A DNA stretch of 64,000 bases, taken from positions 310,001 to 374,000 of the forward strand of contig NZ_ARXU01000002.1 of the NCBI RefSeq assembly GCF_000756655.1, read 5' to 3'. Shown in pieces: positions 5,411 through 64,000 of this stretch (the stretch's first letter is position 1; each line of letters opens with the position of its first letter). The DNA is from Alcanivorax jadensis T9. GTDB lineage: Bacteria; Pseudomonadota; Gammaproteobacteria; Pseudomonadales; Alcanivoracaceae. A program made the translations under genes and the position numbers. Below the pieces are notes generated by a model. That model was not told the origin of the DNA. It made no database searches and saw only the letters and a list, made by a program, of their open reading frames with translations.

Positions 5411-6466
5411 TTACTCACCTCCCACCAGTTGCTCCAAAGCATCAACCACAAGTTGCGGCGGCAGTTGGCGCAGACAGTTCAGATGCCCCAGCGGGCACTC
5501 ACGCTCAAAACACGGGCTGCACTCCAGGCCTAATCGCACTACCGCTACACGATCACCCAGCGGTGGCGTAAACCCCGGCGAGGTGGAACCGTACACTGCT
5601 ACCAGTGGACGCTTGAGGGCGGCGGCAATATGCATCAGCCCGGAATCGTTGCTGACCACCGCGGTGGTGGCCGACAACAGATCCACCGCCTGCTCCAGGG
5701 AAGTATTACCCGCCAGCACCACGGCATGCTCATCCGCACTGTTATCCAGCATCTCGACGATGGTATCAGCCACGGGCTGATCCTTGCCGGAGCCGAAGAT
5801 CCATACCTGCCCACCGTGCTCAATCCAGTGCTGTGCTACCGCCGCGTAATGATGCTCCGGCCAGCGCTTGGACGGACCGAATTCGGCACCGGGACACAGG
5901 CCCAGCACCGGCCGTTGCGTATCAAGGCCATGTGTCGCGATAGCGTCTTGAAGCGAGTCTTCACTGACTTCCAGGTGCGGCGCAGTAATGGTATCCAGTT
6001 TCGGTGCCGGCGCATCCGGTGACAGCGCCAGCGCTACAAAGCGCTGCACCATCAATGGGTGGCCTTCCTTGTCCAGCTTGCGCACGTCGTTCAGCAGGCC
6101 GTAACGCATTTCCCCACGCCACCCGATACGCTGCGGGATCTTTGCCGACCAGGGCACCAACGCAGACTTGAGGGAATTGGGCAGCACATAACTCTGCTGG
6201 TACTGACCACGCAGGGATTTGCCCAGCGCATGTCGCTCACCCAGCTTCAGGTCGCCATGATCGAAAGGCAGCGATAGCGCCTCGCGCACTTCCGGCATGC
6301 GCGACAGCAACGGCCGACACCAGGCCGGCGCCAGCACATCGATGGCACAGTCCGGGTATTGGCGACGCAGTTCGGAAAAAAGGGTCTGGGCCATTACCAT
6401 GTCGCCGACCCAGGACGGGCCGACGACAAGGATGGCGGAGGGCGAGTCGGACAAGAATGCCGGCAT
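5411..6466 (-). CDS. waaF: LPS heptosyltransferase II WaaF
   Basis: WaaF adds the second heptose to the LPS inner core. The 351-residue GT9 protein carries I-L-V-V-G-P-S-W-V-G-D-M-V-M-A-Q, the diagnostic N-terminal motif, starting near residue 12. It also has L-C-P-G-A-E-F-G-P-S-K-R-W-P for donor binding and V-S-N-D-S-G-L-M-H-I-A-A. The N-terminus is about ten residues longer than usual, but no better internal start is visible before the motif. It follows ilvE by 8 bases and heads the waa genes. Confidence 0.94.
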   Translation of the reverse strand: MPAFLSDSPSAILVVGPSWVGDMVMAQTLFSELRRQYPDCAIDVLAPAWCRPLLSRMPEVREALSLPFDHGDLKLGERHALGKSLRGQYQQSYVLPNSLKSALVPWSAKIPQRIGWRGEMRYGLLNDVRKLDKEGHPLMVQRFVALALSPDAPAPKLDTITAPHLEVSEDSLQDAIATHGLDTQRPVLGLCPGAEFGPSKRWPEHHYAAVAQHWIEHGGQVWIFGSGKDQPVADTIVEMLDNSADEHAVVLAGNTSLEQAVDLLSATTAVVSNDSGLMHIAAALKRPLVAVYGSTSPGFTPPLGDRVAVVRLGLECSPCFERECPLGHLNCLRQLPPQLVVDALEQLVGGE

Positions 6467-6474
6467 GCGCCTGC

Positions 6475-7401
6475 TCAGCTCACGTAAGTGAGCCAGTCTC
6501 CGTAGTTTTCATCCTGTTTGCCGCGCACCAGGTCGAAATACACCGCCTGCAACTGCTCGGTAATCGGACCACGCTTGCCTGCGCCAATGATGCGTCCATC
6601 CAGCTCCCGAATCGGCATGACCTCTGCGGCGGTACCCGTGAAGAAAGCTTCATCGGCGATATACAGCTCATCACGAGTAATGCGTTTCTCACGCACCGGA
6701 TAACCTCGCTCTTCGGCCAACTGAATGATGGTTTTGCGGGTAATGCCGTCCAGACAGGACGTCAGCTCCGGGGTGTAAAGCACGCCGTCGCGAACCAGGA
6801 ATACGTTTTCACCGGAGCCTTCTGCCACATAGCCTTCGTTGTCCAACAACAGCGCCTCATCGGCACCGCCGGACAGGGCTTCATTAAGGGCCAACATGGA
6901 ATTCATGTAATTGCCGTTGGCCTTCGCCTTGCACATGGTGATGTTCACGTGGTGACGGGTGTAGCTGGAGGTTCGCACCTTGATGCCCAGCTCCAGGGCT
7001 TCCGGAGACATGTAGGACGGCCATTCCCAGGCTGCCACCATGACATGCACTTTCAGATTGTGGGCGCGCAGGCCCATCCCTTCGCTGCCATAAAACGCCA
7101 TCGGGCGCAGGTAAGCGTGGGGCAAATTATTTTCCCGAATAGACGACAGGTGCGCCTCGTTGATCTGCTCTTTGGTGAAGGGCAGTTTCATGTTGAGGAT
7201 ATGCGCACTGTTGAAAAAGCGGTCGGTGTGATCCTGCAGACGGAAAATCGCCGGCCCTTTTGCCGTCTCATAGGCGCGCACACCTTCGAACACACCCATG
7301 CCATAGTGCAGAGTGTGCGTGAGCACGTGAACCTTCGCGTCCTGCCAGGGAACCAGTTCGCCATCCAACCAGATAAAACCGTCTCTTACAGCCATCGACA
7401 T
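6475..7401 (-). CDS. ilvE: Branched-chain amino acid aminotransferase
   Basis: IlvE is a fold-type IV PLP enzyme that interconverts Leu, Ile and Val with their 2-oxo acids. The 308-residue protein shows H-Y-G-M-G-V-F-E-G-V-R-A-Y near residue 32, the PLP Lys region C-K-A-K-A-N-G-N-Y near residue 160, and E-G-S-G-E-N-V-F followed by F-F-T-G-T-A-A-E-V. Translation may begin at Met1 or Met3. It is 36 bases from glnE and 8 bases from waaF. The glnE-ilvE-waaF order is conserved in Pseudomonas. Confidence 0.95.
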   Translation of the reverse strand: MSMAVRDGFIWLDGELVPWQDAKVHVLTHTLHYGMGVFEGVRAYETAKGPAIFRLQDHTDRFFNSAHILNMKLPFTKEQINEAHLSSIRENNLPHAYLRPMAFYGSEGMGLRAHNLKVHVMVAAWEWPSYMSPEALELGIKVRTSSYTRHHVNITMCKAKANGNYMNSMLALNEALSGGADEALLLDNEGYVAEGSGENVFLVRDGVLYTPELTSCLDGITRKTIIQLAEERGYPVREKRITRDELYIADEAFFTGTAAEVMPIRELDGRIIGAGKRGPITEQLQAVYFDLVRGKQDENYGDWLTYVS

Positions 7402-58189: not shown

Positions 58190-58221
58190 TTGACCTTGGG
58201 GTTACCCTGAAGTTTGACAAT
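58190..58221 (+). promoter_or_regulatory. MerR/CueR-type operator-promoter of copA
   Basis: TTGACC (-35) is followed by a 19 to 20 base spacer carrying ACCTTGGGG-TT-ACCCTGAAG, an imperfect dyad, then TGACAAT as the -10 region. Long 19-20 base spacers with a central dyad are the hallmark of promoters activated by MerR-family metal sensors. No cueR gene is inside the window. Confidence 0.72.
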
Positions 58222-58269
58222 CTGTGACGACAGGAATGGTTACGCCCACACCGGCCAAAGGAGATCCTG

Positions 58270-60744
58270 ATGCAGACACAGAGGTTCGATATTCAGGGCG
58301 CCAGCTGCCAGAGCTGCGTCCGCAAGATTCGCGAGGCGCTGTCCGCCATCGCAGGCATCGACGATGTGCAGGTGGATCTGGATGCCCAGCAGGTGACCGT
58401 CACCGGCACCGCCGACAGTGCCGACGTGCAGGCCGCCCTGGCCAAGGCGGGTTATGCCGTCGAAGACACGCCGCCTCACACTGCATCAGCATCGCCCGCC
58501 AGCACCGATCAGGAACAGCAGCTTGCCATTACCGGTGCCACCTGCGCCGCCTGCGTACGCACCATCGAAAACGCCCTGCGCAACACCGCGGGGGTCAACC
58601 AGGCACAGATGAACTTTGCCGACCGCACCGCCAGAGTCAGCGGCACGGCGGATACCCAATCCCTGATCGACGCAGTAGAGAAGGCGGGCTATGGCGCCAG
58701 CCCAGTGGACGACAACGATGATGATGGCGCCCGCGAACAACAGGAGCAGCAACACTATCGCCGCCTGCTGCGTCATACCTGGCTGGGCCTGGGGCTGGGC
58801 GTACCGCTGATGGCCTGGGGACTGCTGGGCGGCAACATGATGGTTCAACCCGGCACCGCCAGTCAGTGGATCTGGCTGGCTATCGGCCTGCTGACCCTGG
58901 CGGTGCTGGCCACCGCCGGGCGCCATTTCTTTGTCGGTGCCTGGAAGGCGTTTCGCAATCACAACGCCAACATGGATACCCTGATTGCTCTGGGCACCGG
59001 TGCCGCCTGGCTCTACTCCATGGCCGTGGTACTGATTCCCGCGGCGCTCCCGGAAGCCGCCCGCCATGTGTACTTCGAAGCCAGTGCCATGATCATCGGC
59101 CTGATCAACCTGGGCCAGGCCCTGGAAGTGCGGGCCCGGGGCAAAACCAGCGAAGCGGTAAAACGGCTACTGGACCTGGGCGCCAAAACCGCCCGGGTGG
59201 TTCGCGACGGCCCGAATCACGAAAAAAGGGAGCAGGACATCCCGGTGGAGCAGGTGCAGACCGATGACATCCTGCGCGTACGCCCCGGGGAAAAAATTGC
59301 CGTGGACGGCATCGTCGAAGAAGGCGAAAGCCGCCTGGATGAGTCCATGCTCACCGGCGAACCCATGCCGGTGAGCAAGACCATCGGTGATACGGTCAGC
59401 GCCGGCACCCTGAACGAAGGAGGCACCTTGCTCTACCGGGCCACCGCCGTGGGCAAGGACACCGCCCTGTCACGCATCGTGGCGCTGGTGAAAAAGGCCC
59501 AGGGCAGCAAGCCGCCCATCGGTCGCCTGGCCGACGACGTCTCCGCCGTCTTCGTTCCCACCATCATGCTGATCGCCGTGGTCGCTGCCATGGCCTGGTT
59601 CAATTTGGGGCCGGAGCCGCGTATCACCCACATGCTGATCAGCGCCACCACGGTACTGATCATTGCCTGCCCCTGCGCGCTGGGGCTGGCCACGCCCATG
59701 TCGGTGATGGTCGGCGTCGGCAAGGCCGCCGAGCACGGCATTCTGATTCGTGAAGGTGACGCCCTGCAGACCAGCAGCAAGCTGGACACCATTGTCCTCG
59801 ACAAGACCGGCACCATCACCGAAGGCAAACCGGCGCTCACCGATATTCTCTGCGCCGAGGGTCAGCAGGAAGACCACCTGCTGCAACTGGCCGCCAGCCT
59901 GGAAAGCGGCTCCGAGCATCCGCTGGCCCGCGCCATTCTAGAAGCCGCTCAACAACGTGACATCAGCCCGGACCGGGCCGACAATTTCCATGCCCTCAAC
60001 GGCAAGGGCGTCAGCGCCACCCTGAACGGCAAATCATACCGGCTCGGCAACCGCCGCTGGCTGGAAAGCGAAGGGATTACGGCCAACCTGGACAGCAGCT
60101 CGCTCACCGAGCGTGGCGCCACCCCCCTGTTCCTGGCTGAGGGAAATACCCTGCTGGGTATCCTCGGCGTGGCCGATCGCATCAAGGAAGACTCCCGGGA
60201 CGCCATTGCCCGCCTGAAGGACCAAGGCCTCACTGTGGTGATGATTACCGGTGATATTCAGGCCAGTGCCGATGCCATCGCCAAACAGGTGGGCGTGGAC
60301 CAGGTGATGGCGGAGGTGCTGCCCGAGGACAAGGCGAAAAAAGTGAAAGCGCTGCAGGATAAGGGCCGCATCGTGGCCATGGTTGGCGACGGCATCAACG
60401 ATGCCCCGGCGCTGGCCCAGGCGGATGTGGGCTTTGCCATCGGCACTGGCACCGACGTGGCGATCGAATCCGCCGCCATCACCCTGATGGGCGGCTCCCT
60501 GCACGGTGTCGCCGATGCCATGGCGATCTCATCGGCCACGGTACGCAACATCAAGCAAAACCTGTTCGGTGCCTTTATCTACAACAGCCTTGGCGTGCCA
60601 GTGGCTGCCGGGGTGCTCTACCCCCTCACCGGCAGTCTGCTCAGCCCGGTGATTGCCGGCGCCGCCATGTCGCTCAGCTCGGTGACCGTGGTCAGCAATG
60701 CCAACCGGTTGCGACTGTTCAAACCCCAGCGAGGTAAGTCATGA
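58270..60744 (+). CDS. copA: Cu(I) P1B-type ATPase CopA
   Basis: CopA pumps cytoplasmic Cu(I) to the periplasm. The 824-residue protein has two N-terminal HMA domains with C13-Q-S-C16 and C92-A-A-C95, six to eight membrane helices and C-P-C at 467-469. The phosphorylated Asp511 lies in D-K-T-G-T. G-S-E-H-P-L and M-V-G-D-G-I-N-D are also present. A CCAAAGGAG ribosome-binding site precedes the ATG. It is first in an operon with overlapping downstream genes. Confidence 0.96.
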
Positions 60745-61391
60745 CGCCAGAACAACTGGCCGCCCAGCTGCGCTGCCCCAGCGGCGATGACGGCGCTCAG
60801 GTCGCCGACAACATGAATCAGCATAACCAGCCGATCATCGCGGCCAGCTACCAGGCGTTAGCGCCGTCCGCCGGCGACCATATCGTGGAAGTGGGCCCCG
60901 GCACGGCAGGCCATCTACCGGACCTGCTGGCCATGGCGGACGATCTGCACTACACCGGTCTGGATCTGTCCGCGGATATGGTCAGCGCTGCCGGGGCCCT
61001 CCATGGCCACCGGCAACAGGTGCGTTTCCTGCAAGGCGATCTGCACAATCCTCCCCTGCCCGAGGGCAGCGCGGACCATCTGGTCGCCATCAATGTAGTC
61101 TACTTCTGGAACCCGCTGCGGCCGGCGTTAAATGCCATTCGCAAACTGCTACGCCCTGGCGGCAAGCTTTGTCTGGGCCTGCGCGACAGAAACAGCATGG
61201 CCACCATGCCGGTTTTTCAACACGGCTTTGTCACCTATGAAGGGCCGGATCTGCAACAGGCGTTGGCCACTGCGGGATTTGTCGACGTACAGCAACAGGT
61301 GGTTCCGGAACAAAGTATCAACGTTATGGGCCAGGTCATGCACAAGACCGGCCTGGTCATCACCGCCCGCAACCCGGAGGTCGTACCATGA
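60741..61391 (+). CDS. Class I SAM methyltransferase in the copper operon
   Basis: This 216-residue methyltransferase has motif [11 protein letters not shown] near residue 50, G-L-D-L-S-A-D-M near 75, L-Q-G-D-L near 98 and L-R-P-G-G-K-L near 134, the UbiE-like class. It overlaps copA and the cupredoxin gene each by ATGA, so it is co-translated with both. The substrate is unknown. One Cys occurs in the N-terminal L-R-C-P-S and another in G-G-K-L-C-L. It might methylate a small metabolite, lipid or a metal-binding ligand. Confidence 0.85.
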
Positions 61392-61750
61392 CACTGCTGA
61401 TCAATCTTGCCGGCCTGCTACTGATGGTGGGGATCGTCTGGTGGTTCTGGCTGTCCAAATCCACAACACAGAGCCAGAACGTCAGCGATCAGGGCACCAC
61501 CATCGTGGTCGCCGACGGCGTCTACAGCCCGGCCACCCTGCGCGCCAAAGCCGGGGAGACGCTGACCCTGCACTTCGACCGACGGGACCCCTCCCCCTGC
61601 GCCGAGCAGGTGGTGTTCCACGGGCTCGACGTGAGCGAGTTTCTGGAAACGGGTACCATTACCACCGTGACCCTGAACAATCCGCCCGCCGGCGAATACC
61701 GTTTCACCTGCCAGATGCAGATGTATCAGGGCAGATTGATTGTAAGCTGA
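61388..61750 (+). CDS. Membrane-anchored cupredoxin-like protein
   Basis: This 120-residue protein has an N-terminal membrane anchor (residues 5-21) and a cupredoxin fold. Potential copper ligands are Cys in D-P-S-P-C-A-E-Q, His in V-F-H-G-L-D-V and Cys/Met in F-T-C-Q-M-Q-M, near the end. It likely faces the periplasm and receives or buffers copper exported by CopA. It overlaps the methyltransferase gene by ATGA. Confidence 0.82.
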   Translation: MTLLINLAGLLLMVGIVWWFWLSKSTTQSQNVSDQGTTIVVADGVYSPATLRAKAGETLTLHFDRRDPSPCAEQVVFHGLDVSEFLETGTITTVTLNNPPAGEYRFTCQMQMYQGRLIVS

Positions 61751-61799: not shown

Positions 61800-62303
61800 A
61801 TGAAAGTATTTGCGGCATTTCTGCTGGCTTTTCTGGTAGCCGCCTGTGGCGATGATGGGCCGCCCCAGCCCCAGGCCACCGAAGCGGCCCCTGCGGCCAC
61901 TGAAGAAGCCAAAACCGCCAGCACCGACAAGGTGATGGAAGTGTACAAATCGCCCACCTGTGGCTGCTGTGGCGCCTGGGTGGATCACATGAAAGACAAT
62001 GGCTACCAAGTGGTCGTCCACGAACAGCAGAACCTGCAATCCATCAAGGAAAAGGCCGGCATCCTCCCGGGGCAGGGCTCCTGTCATACCGCCTTTATTG
62101 GCGACTACGTCATCGAAGGTCATGTGCCCGCCAGCGACGTGGACCGTCTGCTCGCCGAGCGACCCGATGCCAAAGGGCTTACCGTCCCCGGCATGCCCGT
62201 CGGCTCCCCCGGCATGGAAATGGGCGACCGCAAAGATGCCTATGATGTGCTGTTGTTCGATGAAGACGGCACCCAGGTCTTCAGCCACCATCCCGGCAAC
62301 TGA
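61800..62303 (+). CDS. DUF411 (CopG-type) copper-binding lipoprotein
   Basis: This 167-residue lipoprotein has lipobox V-A-A-C near residue 16 and a Thr/Ala-rich linker. The DUF411 core is K-S-P-T-C-G-C-C-G-A-W, a C-x-C-C thioredoxin-like site, with a later G-S-C-H-T-A. CopG, a DUF411 protein, binds copper clusters in the periplasm and may convert copper redox states. The ATG at 61800 follows a GAGGAAAC ribosome-binding site, 49 bases after the cupredoxin gene. Confidence 0.87.
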   Translation: MKVFAAFLLAFLVAACGDDGPPQPQATEAAPAATEEAKTASTDKVMEVYKSPTCGCCGAWVDHMKDNGYQVVVHEQQNLQSIKEKAGILPGQGSCHTAFIGDYVIEGHVPASDVDRLLAERPDAKGLTVPGMPVGSPGMEMGDRKDAYDVLLFDEDGTQVFSHHPGN

Positions 62304-62310
62304 TCCCCCT

Positions 62311-62412
62311 GTAGGAGCAACTCTCGAGGTGCGAACCCGAGCTCAGGCGAGGTAAATTTATCTGGTAACGTCAAACCTGTTAACCGGTTAGCACCTCAAG
62401 GGGTGCTCCTAC
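62311..62412. repeat. REP-type inverted pair in the copper region
   Basis: It begins GTAGGAGCAACTCTCGAGGTGCGAA and ends with GCACCTCAAGGGGTGCTCCTAC. The arms are less perfect than in the 38745 copy, with an AT-rich centre. It separates the DUF411 gene from lysE. Confidence 0.7.
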
Positions 62413-62499
62413 AGGGGCTTCGTAGCCCACTTGTCGGCTCTTCAACCTGTCACACCAACCCGTTACAGTCTCTCCCTTTTGCGTGTAACGAGATACTGA

Positions 62500-63123
62500 A
62501 TGCTCCCTCTTCACGACTGGCTACTGTTGGCCAGCGTCTGCGCCCTGGGTGCCATGGCGCCCGGCATCAGCCTGGCGGTGATCACCCGCCACACCCTCCA
62601 TGGCGGCCCCCGAGCCGGGGCCATCGCCGGGGTTACCCATGCCCTGGGAATCGGTATCTGGGCCACCGCCACCGTCACCGGGCTGGCGGTATTGTTTCAC
62701 CGCTACCCGTCACTGGAATTATTCTTCAGCCTGAGTGGCGCCCTCTTCCTGCTGTGGATGGCATGGAAAAGCTGGCAGGCGGGCAAGCAACCGCTGGCGC
62801 CCATGGATGCCTCCAGCCAATTCAACGTCCTGCACGGCGCCGCCCGCGACGGCTTTCTGGTGGCGTTCCTGAATCCGAAAGTGGCCCTGTTTTTCCTGGC
62901 CCTGTTCAGCCAGTTCCTGCAAACGGACATGGCCCAGGCCGCCCGCATCCAGATGGTGCTGACCTCCATGTTCATCGATGGCGGCTGGTATGTGCTGGTG
63001 GCCCTATTACTGGGTCGCAGCCGTTTTCTACCCTGGCTGCGCGCCCACCATCACTGGGTGGAAAAAGGCACCGCCGTGTTGCTGGTCGTTATCGCCGCCA
63101 GCGTGGTGTGGCAGGTGGCGTGA
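62500..63123 (+). CDS. LysE-family exporter
   Basis: This 207-residue protein has five to six membrane helices and the LysE/RhtB opening A-M-A-P-G-I-S-L-A-V-I-T-R near residue 18, then L-N-P-K-V-A-L-F-F-L-A-L-F near residue 125. Members export amino acids or homoserine lactones. It may be unrelated to copper, lying between two copper units with its own start. The specificity is unknown. Confidence 0.88.
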   Translation: MLPLHDWLLLASVCALGAMAPGISLAVITRHTLHGGPRAGAIAGVTHALGIGIWATATVTGLAVLFHRYPSLELFFSLSGALFLLWMAWKSWQAGKQPLAPMDASSQFNVLHGAARDGFLVAFLNPKVALFFLALFSQFLQTDMAQAARIQMVLTSMFIDGGWYVLVALLLGRSRFLPWLRAHHHWVEKGTAVLLVVIAASVVWQVA

Positions 63124-63147: not shown

Positions 63148-63178
63148 TTGACCTTGGGGTAACCCGCAGGTTAATAAT
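63148..63178 (+). promoter_or_regulatory. Second MerR/CueR-type operator-promoter
   Basis: TTGACC, a 19-base spacer and AATAAT match the MerR-family pattern, with ACCTTGGGGT-A-ACCCGCAGGT as the dyad. Its left half (TTGACCTTGGGGT) is identical to the operator before copA at 58190. The -10 ends 6 bases before the next ATG. Confidence 0.72.
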
Positions 63179-63184
63179 GGTTCC

Positions 63185-63544
63185 ATGAAACGATATCTGC
63201 GCCTCGATTACCGGTCCTTGCTGGCCGGCCTGCTCGCCACCCTGATGCTGGTGGTGACGAGCAATTTGTCGGCGCAGGTTTCCGTGGGCCATCTGGATAG
63301 CGCTCCACAGACCCACTGCCATCACCATGCCGAGATGGCACAGCCCGACCATGGCGACAGCCAGCACTGCCCCCAGGATGACGGTTGCCAGTGCCTGACC
63401 CTGTGCCAGATCAGTGCCACCACCGTCGCCCTGTTCAGCGGGCAGACGGATATCCCCGAGCACCCCTGGCACCCCAGCCTGGAGACCCGCCTTCACGATG
63501 GCATCCACCACCTGCCGTTACGGCCACCGTCCCTGACTGTTTGA
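63185..63544 (+). CDS. CopL/DUF2946-like Cys/His-rich protein
   Basis: This 119-residue protein has a hydrophobic N-terminus (residues 12-28) and a His/Cys-rich segment H-C-H-H-H-A-E-M and H-C-P-Q-D-D-G-C-Q-C-L-T-L-C near residues 45-75. It resembles CopL/DUF2946 proteins found upstream of copA multicopper oxidase genes in Xanthomonas and others. The likely role is periplasmic copper binding or sensing. Because the promoter -10 ends 6 bases upstream, translation may be leaderless or start at an internal codon. Confidence 0.72.
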   Translation: MKRYLRLDYRSLLAGLLATLMLVVTSNLSAQVSVGHLDSAPQTHCHHHAEMAQPDHGDSQHCPQDDGCQCLTLCQISATTVALFSGQTDIPEHPWHPSLETRLHDGIHHLPLRPPSLTV

Positions 63545-63580: not shown

Positions 63581-64000
63581 ATGAAAACCGCACCCCCGTT
63601 TTCCCTGCCACGACGCCGTTTCGTGCAGGGCCTGGCGCTCGGAGCCACTGGTCTGGGGCTGGGTCTGACATCCGCCCAGCTGCTGGCCCGTCAGGGCCAC
63701 ACCGGCGCCCCCACGCTTACCGGTGACACCTTCCACCTGACTCTGGGTGGCGCCGACGTCAACATCACCGGCAAGACCCGCCCGGCAACCACCATCAATG
63801 GCATCGTCCCCGGCCCCACCCTGCGCTGGCGCGAAGGCGACACCGTCACACTCAAGGTCACCAACCTGCTGCCGGAAACCAGCTCCATCCACTGGCATGG
63901 CCTGCTGCTGCCGTTTGAAATGGACGGCGTACCGGGGCTGTCATTTGATGGCATCAAACCGGGAGAAACCTTTACCTACCGCTTTCCGATCAAGCAGAAC
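63581..64000 (+). CDS. CopA-type multicopper oxidase, partial
   Basis: The first 140 residues of a multicopper oxidase are present; the gene continues past the window. A Tat signal R-R-R-F-V-Q-G at residues 11-17 directs folded export. The first copper motif I-H-W-H-G appears near residue 105, after N-G-I-V-P-G-P-T-L-R. This type of protein (PcoA/CopA) oxidises and binds Cu(I) in the periplasm. A CAGGAGA ribosome-binding site is present 36 bases after the CopL-like gene. Confidence 0.9.
   Translation, partial: MKTAPPFSLPRRRFVQGLALGATGLGLGLTSAQLLARQGHTGAPTLTGDTFHLTLGGADVNITGKTRPATTINGIVPGPTLRWREGDTVTLKVTNLLPETSSIHWHGLLLPFEMDGVPGLSFDGIKPGETFTYRFPIKQN

Follow-up and report, generated by a model that had tools for sequence, protein, structure and literature searches.

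Why does a gene for a SAM-dependent methyltransferase stand between the pump gene and the cupredoxin gene of a copper-export operon in Alcanivorax jadensis T9, and does its product serve that operon? The locus was studied within a 64,000-nucleotide stretch of the genome (here called the window), and its features are collected in Table 1. The copA/methyltransferase border reads ...AAGTCATGACG... and the methyltransferase/cupredoxin border reads ...GTACCATGACACTG..., each containing ATGA as a 4-base overlap. The original prediction of such overlaps on both flanks can therefore be seen directly in the sequence, and the 49 bases that it gave between the cupredoxin gene and the DUF411 lipoprotein gene agree with our measurement. 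Pfam matches identify the cupredoxin (Cupredoxin_1, 1.6e-25) and the DUF411 protein (1.2e-27), the latter of which we take to be CopG. The methyltransferase gene is present as a single copy in its own genome, where one partial match of 31% identity was found elsewhere (E <= 0.001).

Table 1. Features of the copper locus, with positions in the window.
Feature	Position	Strand	Basis
MerR/CueR-type promoter-operator, begins TTGACCTTGGGGTTACCC, 80 bases before copA	58190..58225	+	pattern search
copA, Cu(I)-type P1B ATPase, two HMA domains	58270..60744	+	ORF call, domain matches
Class I SAM-dependent methyltransferase, 216 aa	60741..61391	+	ORF call, domain and structure matches, alignments, tree
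Small cupredoxin, N-terminal hydrophobic stretch (by eye)	61388..61750	+	ORF call, Pfam
DUF411 protein, lipobox-like N-terminus (by eye)	61800..62303	+	ORF call, Pfam
Inverted repeat, 32-nt arms, 88% complementary, CCCCTGTAGGAGCA...TGCTCCTACAGGGG, between DUF411 and lysE-type gene	62306..62417	.	
LysE/RhtB-type transporter gene	62500..63123	+	
Second MerR/CueR-type site, before His-rich copL-like gene and multicopper oxidase gene	63148..63183	+	pattern search
CopL-like His-rich protein, match below family cut-off	63185..63544	+	
Copper-resistance multicopper oxidase gene, start; runs off the window	63581..64000	+	

Close relatives of the methyltransferase were found between copA and a cupredoxin gene in 22 of 22 loci, which come from 21 genomes of three genera and span two families belonging to different orders. 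They occur in 12 of 17 Alcanivorax genomes (57-100% identity), in 5 of 13 genomes of the sister genus g2 (50-53% identity) and in 4 of 5 genomes of a genus from another order (g307). Alcanivorax and g2 together contribute 18 of these loci, two of them from a single genome (G012), each with the gene in the same position. The assignment of the methyltransferase to a copper operon in the original prediction is supported, since this close subfamily was found solely there. In G012, an Alcanivorax genome, the region from copA to the multicopper oxidase gene is present twice (L039 and L040), the two copies lying ~186 kb apart and encoding identical methyltransferases.

The copA/methyltransferase overlap measures 4 bases in 12 of the 13 Alcanivorax loci and also in L154 of G604 (copA ends at 5581 of that locus, the methyltransferase starts at 5578), while the five g2 loci have overlaps of 11-14 bases that depend on script-chosen, unsure start codons. 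The thirteenth Alcanivorax locus is that of G011, where a broken methyltransferase gene was considered and rejected because a stretch of N in the assembled sequence spans the copA/methyltransferase border. At the methyltransferase/cupredoxin border the genes share 4 bases at 18 of 22 loci and 7 bases at three g307 loci, and G003 has a 2-base gap.

Wider genome sets were covered by profile searches that may have missed some members, as the number of candidates scored in each genome was limited. Among 398 genomes of the phylum, six contained a match; one of these (G604, from another order of the same class) shows the gene order of the window, and in four others (G319, G695, G786 and G694) the homologue is not flanked by a copA match. 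Ten of 197 genomes from the order of G604 matched, four of which, all from its genus, have the copper arrangement. Of 390 genomes from the order to which the window belongs, 14 matched, six being copper-linked genomes already counted. These context counts leave out weaker methyltransferase matches (E ~1e-5). Relatives retrieved by plasmid searches (14 and 11 records) were all below 60% identity and were mostly annotated as class I methyltransferase or not at all.

The same operon also exists without the methyltransferase. In 13 of 30 genomes from the two Alcanivoracaceae genera copA is paired with the cupredoxin gene alone, and the copA/cupredoxin border is an ATGA overlap in all 13 such loci; the original wording, that the methyltransferase is locked into the operon, is too strong. 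The 19 cupredoxin loci retrieved in the family besides those with the methyltransferase (these 13 genomes of Alcanivorax or g2, five from other genera, and G004 with a second copy) all show copA upstream, and none shows a methyltransferase match. Across 369 genomes of the class, the cupredoxin was detected in 33, the window's included, with 37 matches outside the window's genome. Of these 37 loci 29 were examined, and copA was directly upstream in 28 and a methyltransferase match present in none. Because the methyltransferase is missing from 13 of 30 genomes and from all 29 class loci, copper export does not depend on it, a point against a dedicated role.

The genome G015 illustrates how the two forms of the operon are related. 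Its CopA is 92% identical to that of the window, the methyltransferase is absent, and its border joins the left half of the copA/methyltransferase border seen in G003 to the start of the cupredoxin gene. This match, together with the ATGA retained at loci lacking the methyltransferase, shows that the gene comes and goes while the overlap is left undisturbed. On a copA tree, in which the row for L154 ran from the preceding chaperone gene to beyond the copA stop, the presence of the methyltransferase changes at least eight times, or seven without the four g307 rows, with gains and losses pooled. In G025 the CopA protein groups with relatives from operons without the methyltransferase, whereas the methyltransferase groups with those of other g2 genomes, a conflict which indicates that the histories of the two genes are not shared throughout. 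The patchy presence, and junctions that are clean whether the gene is there or not, are what would be expected of a translation-compatible passenger, that is, a generic methyltransferase drifting in and out of the operon with no role in copper handling.

We nevertheless consider a passenger unlikely, because the methyltransferase is under purifying selection, falls, among the sequences compared, in a single clade of copper-linked members only, and holds the same place in two families that belong to separate orders. Pairwise dN/dS values were 0.10-0.24 in eight of eight pairs tried, being higher than those of copA in four pairs and lower in four, while at the protein level the methyltransferase is less conserved than CopA. 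An unvarying position in all 22 close loci, taken with these dN/dS values, argues that the arrangement is beyond chance. In a tree of 35 methyltransferase rows, 21 copper-linked rows fell on one side and 14 others on the other (support 100/99.9), such that copper linkage requires a single change of state. The long-branch homologues G204, G302 and G031 were dropped from this tree; when they were kept, support for the copper clade was 92/92, which counts against the view of a dedicated accessory. Both trees were built without the G011 fragment and the distant loci L060, L061, L157 and L182-L186.

Distant homologues (~27-39% identity) are alignable over most of their length and share the N-terminal motif P...V...M..N with the copper-linked enzymes. 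A copA match was found beside none of 25 such loci, some of which have short flanks: twenty (L051-L061, L155-L157, L170-L175) mostly have ~6 kb on each side and five (L182-L186) have flanks of at most 1.5 kb. Little weight is placed on the absence of copA at L059 and L185, since the upstream sequence there is only ~300 and ~100 bases. As its close relatives are found solely in the copA/cupredoxin position, the methyltransferase is probably a dedicated, optional helper in copper defence. That it is a dedicated enzyme of the copper operon seems to us likely; that it is an optional yet dedicated accessory of a copA-methyltransferase-cupredoxin-DUF411 efflux operon, the proposed copper-linked role included, is reasonably probable. 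The latter estimate overlaps with the possibility of a protein substrate considered below, and the likelihoods given here do not sum to one.

What the enzyme methylates was approached through its sequence relatives. The protein matches Methyltransf_11 (1.4e-16, 61.3 bits against a curated Pfam cut-off of 21.2), placing it in that family, and no signal peptide is visible by eye. An E-x-G-x-G motif and an acidic residue at the end of strand 2 form the SAM-binding motif of such enzymes, and the corresponding residues E50, G52, P53, G54 and D75 are invariant in 21 of 21 aligned rows of the copper clade. R148, F159, G168 and P169 are also identical in all 21 and H58 in 20; these five are changed in most of the 17 non-copper homologues compared. 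Relatives of solved structure, among the 60 of 77 matches listed, align over the SAM-binding core (approximately residues 40-147), from which a Rossmann-like fold is predicted; AlphaFold, given an alignment of three sequences only (window, L003, L004), returned a pLDDT of 41.9. The best two, both phosphoethanolamine N-methyltransferases, align to approximately residue 202.

No family model that names a substrate scored above its cut-off. The best was the fatty-acid O-methyltransferase Mtf2 (43.7 against 400), and the ubiquinone/menaquinone methyltransferase UbiE reached 21.6 bits, below its cut-off of 158.35. Weak arsenite-methyltransferase matches (7.4e-6 and 3.7e-5, far below the cut-offs) would fit an enzyme that rides in a metal island and detoxifies another metal or metalloid, such as arsenic, tellurium or selenium, by methylation. 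ArsM, however, needs several conserved, arsenic-binding cysteines. No invariant cysteine exists across 16 aligned orthologues, the ArsM model gave 25.6 bits against a cut-off of 263, and no arsenic or tellurium family was found by Pfam among the seven window proteins scanned. Arsenite-type methylation is set aside on account of the missing conserved cysteines and the low scores, and detoxification of another metal is, more broadly, very improbable.

Besides a passenger, the main alternative to the small-molecule substrate that we favour is a protein of the operon itself: the enzyme might methylate a metal-binding domain of CopA, or the cupredoxin before its export, and so tune copper binding. 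The neighbours common to both families are indeed copA and the cupredoxin gene, a DUF411 match being found in none of the four loci of the second genus. Against this, the named relatives of solved structure among those listed are mostly small-molecule enzymes, despite the presence of an mRNA cap enzyme and a peptide-modifying enzyme, operons that lack the methyltransferase contain the same partners, and no target site was identified; the chances of such a protein substrate are low. A small molecule tied to copper toxicity is a tentative proposal, a little short of an even chance, and any single named substrate would be a poor bet. This includes the copper ligand, lipid or quinone that the original prediction put forward as a possible target under copper stress.

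A MerR/CueR-type site upstream of copA makes copper-dependent co-expression of these genes plausible. The sequence TTGACCTTGGGGTWACCC has two matches in the window, before copA and at 63148, where 0.01 would be expected by chance; the sites before copA and the copL-like gene resemble MerR/CueR promoters. Comparable sites lie ahead of copA at 13 of 18 Alcanivoracaceae loci with the methyltransferase and at 11 of 18 without it, and three of four g307 loci have a different version before copA or the chaperone gene. None of eight MerR-type matches in the genome scored above the CueR cut-off, which counts against the proposed regulation; the match ranked second contains a CX7C loop but by eye lies near a cation-efflux-like gene.

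These observations are consistent with a model in which a MerR/CueR-type regulator would switch the operon on in response to copper, and a soluble, cytosolic methyltransferase would be made alongside the pump. Much less certainly, the enzyme might then act in the cytosol on a small molecule that either binds Cu(I) or undergoes redox cycling with copper (a catechol, quinol, thiol or lipid, for instance), so that methylation would lower copper damage. Meanwhile CopA would pump, and the cupredoxin and the DUF411 protein would deal with copper outside. In the broadest form of this proposal, a subfamily of methyltransferases devoted to copper efflux would modify CopA, the cupredoxin, or a metabolite that binds Cu(I) or redox-cycles. 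Methylation would then be an undescribed layer of bacterial copper defence, which lineages toggle through gain or loss of one translationally coupled gene; we regard this as conceivable but rather doubtful. If the methyltransferase does act in copper defence, it would connect SAM-dependent methylation with metal export and suggest that copper toxicity has a target not yet recognised. Closely related genomes that differ in the gene, such as G015, make the question directly testable.

How far does this operon depart from those already known? The original prediction held that none of the well-known copper operons includes a methyltransferase. For the classical operons this stands, to our knowledge, and we likewise know of none in CopG and CopL/PcoA-type systems, whose counterparts (DUF411 and the copper resistance genes) lie downstream in the island of the window. 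Adjacent pump and cupredoxin genes, as in the window, are also found in the copA-cupredoxin pairs of other Gammaproteobacteria, which differ in lacking a methyltransferase match (29 of 29 examined loci). The window's enzyme also has generic class I homologues in the Methyltransf_11 group (~27-39% identity), which differ in having no copA match beside them at the 25 loci compared. Isoprenylcysteine carboxyl methyltransferases, by comparison, constitute a membrane family. One such enzyme limits the original claim: PMC8478169 (2021) describes marine merR-copA-cupredoxin clusters, in Alteromonas and further genera, that include a gene annotated as isoprenylcysteine methyltransferase, and its abstract states copper induction for genes of both systems studied. 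In the passages concerned, these clusters resemble the window in that a cupredoxin gene comes after the Cu(I) ATPase gene and a methyltransferase is annotated in the cluster. They differ in that their methyltransferase follows the cupredoxin and a DUF2933 or hypothetical small protein, whereas the class I enzyme of the window stands between copA and the cupredoxin gene, and the distinction between the two enzymes is one of annotated family. Neither PMC11371751 nor PMC6444534 uses the word methyltransferase in its main text. The copA-methyltransferase-cupredoxin arrangement is a variation on an operon type that is already known, and no description of a class I methyltransferase in this position was found in the open-licence literature searched.

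Downstream of the DUF411 gene, the inverted repeat may mark the end of the operon or be a REP-like element. In L154 (G604) the position of the window's DUF411 gene is taken by a TspO/MBR gene (6623-7105 of that locus). Whether or not the methyltransferase is present, a LysE/RhtB-type gene is found no more than ~6 kb from the copper operon at 29 of 31 loci of Alcanivorax and g2, counting the window. In five genomes of another genus (L170-L174) ~0.7-1.0 kb separates a distant methyltransferase homologue from a LysE-type gene, and these LysE-type genes show 24-28% identity to that of the window.
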